From positions 62,001 through 126,000 of the forward strand of contig NZ_LMCM01000008.1 of assembly GCF_001426245.1 (NCBI RefSeq): 64,000 nucleotides of DNA, written 5' to 3'. Made by a program: the position numbers and the translations under genes. Shown piece by piece: positions 11,218-17,341 of the stretch (position 1 is the first letter of the stretch; each line of letters starts with the position of its first letter). The DNA is from Phycicoccus sp. Root101. GTDB taxonomy: Bacteria > Actinomycetota > Actinomycetes > Actinomycetales > Dermatophilaceae. The notes under the pieces were generated by a model that saw nothing but the letters and a program-made list of their open reading frames with translations, was not told where the DNA came from and made no database searches.

Positions 11218-11293
11218 TGGTGGGCCCCGTGGGGCTCGAACCCACAACCTACGGATTAAAAGTCCGCAGCTCTGCCAATTGAGCTAGAGGCCC
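11218..11293 (-). tRNA. tRNA-Lys (anticodon TTT)
   Basis: Read on the minus strand it begins GGGCCTCTAGCTCAATTGG and ends with the T arm GGTTCGAGCC and acceptor GGGGCCCA followed by an encoded CCA. The anticodon loop is CTTTTAA, giving anticodon TTT (Lys). All four arms fold: acceptor 7 bp with one G-U pair, D arm, anticodon stem GCGGA/TCCGT and T arm. The 3' end faces the integrase, so it is the probable attachment site of the element to the left. Confidence 0.96.
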
Positions 11294-15925: not shown

Positions 15926-16573
15926 ATGAGAAACGAGCCCAGCGGCCGTCCCGGCCCCCGCCGTCCCGCCTTCTTCAGCCCTGCGGCCATGGAGTCGCAG
16001 GGCGGCACCGTCCCCGACCCCGCCCAGGTGACCGAGATCGCCCACGAGACGGCCGCCGTCCTCGTCGGGACGGGCCGTGCCTCGACCGACCCCGCCGTGA
16101 CCGCGCGGCTCGTCTCCCTCGTCGACGACCTCGGCCTGTCGACCGTGGCCGAGCTCTGGGCCGACCGCCCTGCGCGGAGCCTCCCTGGCGCGCTGTGGCG
16201 GCTCTACGCCCTGCGTGAGTGGGTGCGCCGGACGCCCGAGGACGCGGCCTCCGACTACTCGGCAGGCGTGCGCTTCACCGACGTCAACCACGTCGTCGCG
16301 GGGGTCGCCGAACCACCCGGCCCGACCGAGCTGCGCGAGCTCACCGACGCCATCCTCCGGGGGGTCTTCGAGGGGGACTTCGCCGTTGCGCTGCAACGGG
16401 CTGCGGCCTTCTGCCGCGTCGTCGCCGCTGGTCGTGCGGATCGCGCGCACACCACCGACGTGCAGGACCGCGAGGCCGCCGGGGTGCAGACCCAGCGGGC
16501 CGCCTCGATGCTCTCGACCGCCGGTGACCTCGAGGCGTGTGCAGCCCTCTGGCGGGCCGGCGAGCTGCGCTGA
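15926..16573 (+). CDS. Conserved actinobacterial hypothetical protein
   Basis: A 215-residue soluble protein beginning MRNEPSGRPGPRRPAFFSPA. It is mostly helical; conserved-looking stretches are WRLYALREWVRRTPEDAA (about 91-108) and LRELTDAILRGVFEGDFAVA (about 133-152). I do not recognise a named domain. Similar proteins occur widely in actinobacteria as hypotheticals. It starts at ATG 15926, about 50 bases after the zinc-ribbon gene, and may share its transcript. A strong secondary structure lies about 130 bases downstream. Confidence 0.65.
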   Translation: MRNEPSGRPGPRRPAFFSPAAMESQGGTVPDPAQVTEIAHETAAVLVGTGRASTDPAVTARLVSLVDDLGLSTVAELWADRPARSLPGALWRLYALREWVRRTPEDAASDYSAGVRFTDVNHVVAGVAEPPGPTELRELTDAILRGVFEGDFAVALQRAAAFCRVVAAGRADRAHTTDVQDREAAGVQTQRAASMLSTAGDLEACAALWRAGELR

Positions 16574-16704
16574 CCGGCGCGCGCGCTGGCCGACCCGGCC
16601 CTGCGCCATACCCCTGTCTGGAGCGGTGACGCCACCCGAACTCCGGTTCTCCACAAGGGGCCGAACGGGGGAACAGACCGCCGGGGTGCGGGGTTATGGT
16701 GTGG

Positions 16705-16791
16705 TGTGCGCCGGGCCGCGGTAGCCCCGGGTCCCAAATTAAGCCGCTACGAGCGGCCTCGTGCCGTGAGGCGCTCCCGGCCCGGCGCACA
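16705..16791 (+). ncRNA. Candidate structured RNA (three-way-junction-like fold)
   Basis: TGTGCGCCGGGCCG (16705-16718) pairs perfectly over 14 bp with CGGCCCGGCGCACA (16778-16791). Inside, GCCGCT/AGCGGC (16743-16748 with 16752-16757) or alternatively GTAGC/GCTAC (16721-16725 with 16746-16750) form a hairpin, and CCTC/GAGG form another. A -10-like TTATGGT at 16694-16700 lies just upstream of the outer stem, so the plus strand could be transcribed starting at the stem. It could instead be an elaborate bidirectional terminator between convergent genes. I do not recognise a known RNA family. Confidence 0.45.
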
Positions 16792-16796
16792 TGACC

Positions 16797-17122: not shown

Positions 17123-17341
17123 ATGACCACGGACCCGCACGCCGGTGCAGAGCTCACCGACGACGCGCTCCAGGACGAGATCGAGCTGGTCGGTGACCTG
17201 GTCGTGGCTGCGTCCGCGAGCGAGCGGCCCCTCACGGACGACGAGATCGACCGGGCGCTCGGGATCGAGCGAGGTCAGTGCGTCGACACCGACTCCGCCG
17301 CCGACCGGTCCCACCGCAGCTGGAAGCGGCAGAACGCCTGA
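17123..17341 (+). CDS. Small acidic conserved protein
   Basis: A 72-residue acidic protein with the central motif LQDEIELVGDLVVAASASER (about 17-36) and PLTDDEIDRALGIE (about 37-50), which looks like a short helical domain conserved in actinobacteria. It lies about 100 bases upstream of the DUF47-PiT operon, but a PhoP-box-like repeat and its own promoter region separate them. Function unknown. Confidence 0.6.
   Translation: MTTDPHAGAELTDDALQDEIELVGDLVVAASASERPLTDDEIDRALGIERGQCVDTDSAADRSHRSWKRQNA

Follow-up and report, generated by a model that had tools for sequence, protein, structure and literature searches.

The window analysed here, a stretch of 64,000 nucleotides from Phycicoccus sp. 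Root101, contains an RNA element that is missing from Rfam 15 and recurs throughout much of the sampled class to which its host belongs. Its structure, strand, promoter position, and conservation are all derived from comparison of homologous sequences. Judged in this way, the RNA is a three-way junction closed by helix P1, from which hairpins P2 and P3 protrude, with a C/G-rich strand running between P1 and P2 (Table 1). We consider it likely that the element is a stand-alone small RNA that would be transcribed from its own + strand promoter, often under the control of an ECF sigma factor, and would act in trans. The first-pass annotation had proposed an unrecognised structured RNA at this site, and both the silence of Rfam 15 and the compensatory changes described below agree with that proposal.

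Table 1. Features of the RNA element and its surroundings in the window, and loci carrying other copies
Feature	Position or loci	Strand	Basis or remark
Structured RNA, whole element	16705..16791	+	Covariance models R1/R2 match 16704-16792
P1, 5′ strand, 14 bp	16705..16718	+	Perfect inverted repeat
P1, 3′ strand	16778..16791	+	Pairs perfectly with 16705-16718
Joining strand with AGCCCCGGG-NN-CCA (16723-16736)	16719..16742	+	CCCCGGG conservation
P2 hairpin GCCGC-UACGA-GCGGC	16743..16757	+	100% of cells paired
P3 hairpin, loop GUGA	16761..16774	+	97.8% of cells paired
-35-like GGAAC, putative ECF SigR/SigH-type promoter	16670..16674	+	GGAAC-N18-GTT in the window
-10 region GTTATGGT: ECF-type GTT overlapping TATGGT (TANNNT)	16693..16700	+	Motif search
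Upstream neighbour, 215-aa protein	15926..16573	+	Predicted all-helical, no known family
Long-form loci	L257, L260-L264, L266-L271, L274-L276		CCCCGGG and P3 kept
Rhodococcus plasmid places read	L302, L303, L305, L307-L321

Structure of the RNA

The perfect 14-bp outer stem noted in the first-pass annotation is borne out, its arms being separated by 59 nt in the inverted-repeat search of the window. Two inner hairpins are also present, as had been claimed, although P2 and P3 coexist in the consensus and are not alternatives to each other. The P3 loop is of the GNRA type in many but not all copies. The joining strand contains CCCCGGGTCCCA in the window, and the loop sequence CCCGGGTCCCAAATTAAGCC occupies positions 16726–16745 (computed as an offset from printed coordinates). 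The A/T-rich loop had been singled out as the conserved part; it is instead a variable stretch of the joining strand, and conservation lies in the GC-rich AGCCCCGGG..CCA.

The structure that was tested consists of P1, P2, and P3, and corresponds to the RNAalifold consensus minus five inner pairs, three of which make up a hairpin within the CCCCGGG strand. In 52 cores aligned with MAFFT, 98.5% of the cells are paired and double changes are found at 11 of the 22 pairs, a number equalled by none of 500 shuffles and far above that in slid controls. Compensatory changes across relatives, the check suggested for this region, are thus present beyond both types of control, as is characteristic of a structured RNA gene. 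P1 changes on both sides at 10 of the 12 pairs counted in the 52 copies, and G-U pairs are found among its pairs. Extension by 20 copies to a 72-copy alignment, which was fitted to the structure and hence leans its way, raises the double changes to 14 of 22 pairs; among these 72 copies, two of the five P3 pairs change on both sides, whereas in P2 one pair does so in 11 copies and the four remaining pairs are invariant. When 30 copies are aligned together with their flanks, conservation ends at the end of P1 and is restricted upstream to the promoter.

Since the folding energy of the + strand alone is weak (z -1.79, with 10 of 200 shuffles folding equally well), the structure claim rests on comparison. 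The reverse strand alone folds somewhat better (z -2.43). P3 has a predicted probability of only 0.09-0.2 in the window sequence taken by itself, owing to rival pairings of the CCCCGGG strand. An RNA on the reverse strand was considered and rejected, with the promoter signals lying on the + strand and the palindromic element scoring 30.7 versus 109.4 bits with R1. Models R1 and R2, which were both built with the window copy among their input, score that copy at 109.4 and 105.6 bits, respectively, R2 placing it at 78704-78792 of the genome's contig C8.

CCCCGGG is present in 93/93 short-form, 15/15 long-form, and 17/20 plasmid or phage copies, and the P3 motif GCCG-NNN-GGC in 90/93, 15/15, and 20/20 of them; these counts are in part circular, since the letters themselves add to the search scores and the long-form copies were chosen by eye. 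The long form, distinguished by an enlarged P2 arm, surfaced among weak matches and comprises 15 such copies, 12 of them distinct. Its carriers are genomes of groups f100 and f23, and it also occurs as a second copy in a Streptomyces-type genome (G247). As the longer arm replaces P2 in these copies, the core of the RNA appears to consist of the joining strand and P3.

Distribution in actinobacteria

A DNA search with a query of 161 bases finds the element in 52 of 58 relatives, with one match per genome, and the covariance models recover two of the six relatives that it missed (G040 and G041). The phylum and class searches with the models were run with stricter filters. R1 detects the RNA in 21 of 296 genomes sampled over the phylum, and R2 in 18 of 246 genomes of a second phylum sample, all matches of both models being in the class of the window. 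The specificity for this class rests on the phylum genomes outside it, which number about 225 of the 246 (an estimate from row order, obtained by subtracting the at least 21 in-class genomes listed). Within the class, R2 matches 237 of 394 genomes and 78 of 137 genera. A few weak matches among the 237 are doubtful; the one at L265 (G559) is counted there but looks like chance, and those at L272, L273, and L277 are read in the same way.

The loop 14-mer, tried as a probe for contigs, was abandoned, as it hits at least 117 stretches, mostly from unrelated phyla. Seven of these stretches were tested with R1, which finds the RNA in two Kribbella contigs (L095 and L108), in a Pedococcus bigeumensis record (L117), and in L139, and does not find it in L141, L031, and L112. 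The genomes of group f21/g50 are referred to as Streptomyces-type, an assignment that we assume from the gene order in S. coelicolor, and Streptomyces would accordingly be among the carriers.

Promoter and 3′ end

The strand and the likely start of the RNA are fixed by the position and orientation of promoter signals, which were analysed in 93 copies (the 72 aligned ones and 21 of 26 new loci, the other five being genomes already used). SigR is an ECF sigma factor for thiol-oxidative stress. Its consensus is given as GGAAT-N18-19-GTT in PMC9205884, and a motif of this type, GGAA[TC]-N17-20-GTT, occurs within 90 nt upstream in 46/93 copies; the downstream and reverse-strand controls each give 0/93, and shuffles 0.5. 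The strict spacer of 18 or 19 is found in 45/93, the window copy included, and is absent in the other 48. GTT begins 7-14 nt ahead of the element in 43 copies and 33-34 nt ahead in three, a distance too great for transcription from the same start. A looser pattern, GGAA-N18-21-GTT, yields 49/93 at the price of one match in each control. All 11 copies from the genus of the window and all eight Streptomyces-type copies of the set have the ECF-type motif, as do 12 of the 15 long-form copies. Its absence in 47/93 copies means that stress control, where it operates, would not be universal.

The second signal, TANNNT, lies in the 18 nt preceding the element in 83/93 copies, as against a shuffle mean of 4.9 and counts of 2 on the reverse strand, 4 in a downstream slice, and 0 in an upstream slice. 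Both signals are present in 38/93 copies, TANNNT alone in 45/93, and at least one of them in 91/93. The window copy has both, with GGAAC at 16670 followed by N18, GTT at 16693, and TATGGT at 16695. The TTATGGT box reported earlier is thus located at 16694–16700, four bases before the stem rather than five, and the suggestion that the element has its own -10 agrees with the nearly fixed position of the motif ahead of the stem. The predicted transcript would start near 16701-16705.

The 3′ end is less uniform. Strict terminator hairpins follow 8/93 copies, four of them Streptomyces-type, against 0.95 expected, the same test being negative in 85/93. Thymines directly follow P1 in an Arthrobacter plasmid record and in L195. 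No terminator is recognised 3′ of the window copy, nor is there a T-run after its stem. The RNA would be roughly 90 nt long in the window if P1 marks its end; copies with a terminator hairpin would reach about 150 nt at most.

Neighbouring genes and plasmid copies

The 215-aa protein encoded upstream of the RNA has no Pfam or NCBIfam match, and a search of the PDB with its model (mean pLDDT 85.6) gives nothing down to the cut-off of E 0.001. Its family, represented by an alignment of 41 sequences, is usually encoded just upstream of the RNA. Homologues of the gene are detected in 56/74 loci (one genome being counted twice and two genomes contributing two loci each) and lie upstream on the same strand, 30-412 nt from the RNA, in 33 of 37 placed loci; none was detected in 18/74 loci, including Streptomyces-type ones. 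The gene is probably syntenic and separate from the RNA. The next likely + strand gene is a 72-aa ORF (17123–17341) ahead of the DUF47 and Pit genes, with no Pfam match above the cut-off and with tblastn matches in 20/74 loci. DUF47 and Pit homologues are each found in 28/74 loci.

Neighbours differ among lineages. Three f21/g50 loci have the order HU-like, malic-enzyme-like, RNA, HelR/HelD-like helicase, and anti-sigma-like gene, where the HU-like gene is presumed to be such from its sequence and the best NCBIfam matches of the three proteins tested in L239 are below the cut-off. A WhiB-like gene adjoins the RNA in two f22 genomes, with PF02467 above the cut-off in L235. The next downstream gene lies on the opposite strand in 11/18 loci and on the same strand in 7/18, according to a rough ORF caller. 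As these downstream neighbours vary, no single gene among them defines the element.

With the copy from the R. jostii RHA1 plasmid pRHL3 as query, BLAST finds 92 places in 67 Rhodococcus plasmid records, although many of these places cover only one third of the query and some represent the plasmids of the same strain twice. The plasmids are large and often mobilizable, with up to five places each. Eighteen of the 92 places were read, 10 before and eight after a gene pattern was noticed; several are on closely related plasmids, their gene tables have gaps, the fetched stretches vary in length, and the following counts have no control for gene frequency. A DNA ligase gene lies within the fetched stretch in 13/18 places (5/10 of the first and 8/8 of the last), being the next listed gene, and convergent, in 11/18. 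Genes for Lsr2, mIHF, and an SOS-response-associated peptidase are present in 7/18, 3/18, and 4/18 places, respectively, and in 11/18 the next gene runs on the opposite strand. All 18 copies match R2, those in L302 and L321 weakly, and 13/18 have the ECF-type motif, a wider stretch having been searched for the last eight. An Arthrobacter plasmid shares the order of the window, consisting of a hypothetical gene, the RNA, DUF47, and Pit. Matches also occur in two clones from the human gut that were deposited under the name 'Bacteriophage sp.' (L306, MT835541.1, with 82.7 bits with R2, and MT838127.1); they may be actinobacterial DNA.

Despite these BLAST matches on Rhodococcus plasmids, the mobile-element-like fold once suggested finds no support in the window copy, given its single match per genome in 52 relatives and its conserved neighbours.

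Comparison with known RNAs

No Rfam 15 family exceeds its gathering threshold at the window element, where the single sub-threshold match is the microRNA family mir-331 with 22.4 of 80 bits. In the loci of relatives scanned, for both forms of the RNA, Rfam 15 yields nothing beyond tRNAs, a cobalamin riboswitch, and sub-threshold matches away from the RNA. The only gathering-threshold match in the window is a tRNA gene (11221–11293, - strand).

The 6C RNA (RF01066) resembles the element in being an actinobacterial small RNA with C-rich parts, and its model finds no match at the element, its sole match in the genome being elsewhere (contig C10). Ms1/6S-like RNAs are likewise widespread, stand-alone structured RNAs of actinobacteria; the element differs from them in having no Rfam match, in its three-way junction, and in being shorter, the length and shape of Ms1/6S being taken as commonly described. 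RybB and MicA are Sigma-E-dependent small RNAs of enterobacteria, and the element would resemble them, as a small RNA turned on by a stress sigma factor, if its ECF-type promoter were active.

A further candidate for comparison is scr2952 of Streptomyces coelicolor, reportedly described by Vockenhuber et al. in 2011. In PMC8388888 it is one of 11 ncRNAs whose expression was confirmed and one of five conserved in more than half of the tested Streptomyces, and the scr RNAs are stated there to be in Rfam. By its name scr2952 should adjoin SCO2952, which is listed as a HelD homologue in PMC10719064, and the Streptomyces-type copy, situated between malic-enzyme-like and HelR/HelD-like genes, fits this name-based position. 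In contrast, Rfam 15 is silent on three 10-kb Streptomyces-type loci, although the same text places the scr RNAs in Rfam. The Streptomyces copy may be the orphan transcript scr2952, as suggested by name and neighbours only. A literature search of article listings and passages yielded no description of a class-wide family.

Possible function

We propose that transcription on the + strand would begin at the promoter directly ahead of the closing stem. In the genus of the window, the Streptomyces-type genomes, and many other copies this promoter has the SigR-like form GGAAT/C-N18-19-GTT, in most cases with a housekeeping-like TANNNT overlapping it. The likely working surface of the RNA is the CCCCGGG-NN-CCA strand, and action in trans appears most likely, with this strand pairing with G-rich mRNA sites or the folded core being presented to a protein. 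Long perfect antisense targets and pairing with rRNA were both sought and discarded. In 11 genomes of the genus, exact 12-nt complements of the joining strand occur 0-3 times per genome apart from the element itself, 11 sites in total, only two of which are homologous, compared with four for the backwards control pattern; for rRNA (all of 16S and 1916 bases of the 23S locus), 5 and 15 of 30 shuffles pair equally well. Because these searches came up empty, our preference extends to a trans-acting small RNA, often ECF-controlled, whose partner may be either an mRNA or a protein. The self-complementarity of CCCGGG also makes dimerisation possible.

A partly overlapping and more tentative explanation is that the RNA serves as a decoy or scaffold, with CCCCGGG, P2, and the P3 loop binding a conserved protein, much as 6S/Ms1 bind RNA polymerase and naRNA4 binds HU. 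CCCCGGG and most of P2 vary less than helix formation would require, and genes for Lsr2 and mIHF lie in some of the plasmid places, as does the HU-like gene one gene away in the three Streptomyces-type loci. The plasmid neighbourhood, however, was noticed before it was tabulated, in 18 of the 92 places, some of them on related plasmids, and with no gene-frequency control.

A cis-acting leader, similar to a riboswitch or attenuator, for the next gene on the same strand is rather improbable. The three-way junction does resemble an aptamer in that its unpaired strand is strictly conserved, terminators between the RNA and the gene are compatible with attenuation, and suitable same-strand genes exist, such as the malic-enzyme-like gene in three Streptomyces-type loci, DUF47 in L244, and DUF47 again on the Arthrobacter plasmid, to which the recurrent DUF47 and Pit homologues may be added. 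A role in cis is thus possible in some lineages. Nevertheless, most of the loci and plasmid places read have their next gene on the opposite strand, the functions of the same-strand genes vary, and the element does not keep a constant same-strand position before genes of one function. In the 30 aligned loci conservation halts with P1, leaving no sign of a shared expression platform.

It is very unlikely that the upstream hypothetical gene, which often precedes the element on the same strand, has its 3′ UTR or terminator here, since promoter-like signals lie ahead of the stem in nearly all copies, the stem in the window has no T-run, and the gene homologue is undetected in 18 loci. Least credible of all is a DNA element (a recombination site, oriT, or a transposon end), which the perfect inverted repeat and the matches on mobilizable plasmids might suggest, but which is at odds with G-U pairs in P1 that suit RNA and break a DNA palindrome, with a promoter at a nearly fixed place, and with the single match per genome in 52 relatives.

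Returning to a small RNA acting in trans, we can speculate further, with considerable reservation, that the copies form an uncatalogued class-wide family whose two forms differ in having a short or a long P2, controlled by an oxidative-stress sigma factor in much of the class and having CCCCGGG and P3 as a protein- or RNA-binding core. The Rhodococcus plasmid copies near genes for DNA ligase, Lsr2, mIHF, and the SOS peptidase might then belong to a chromatin and DNA-repair cassette of the plasmid under stress.

An RNA carried by 237 of the 394 sampled genomes of the class and yet missing from Rfam 15 is overlooked by Rfam-based annotation. It may represent a regulator shared across the sampled class, with Kribbella and Rhodococcus among the named carriers. 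Its promoter predicts control by SigR/SigH, a prediction open to testing in laboratory strains of Streptomyces or Rhodococcus, while the copies on plasmids would offer a second natural genetic system in which to find the role of this RNA.
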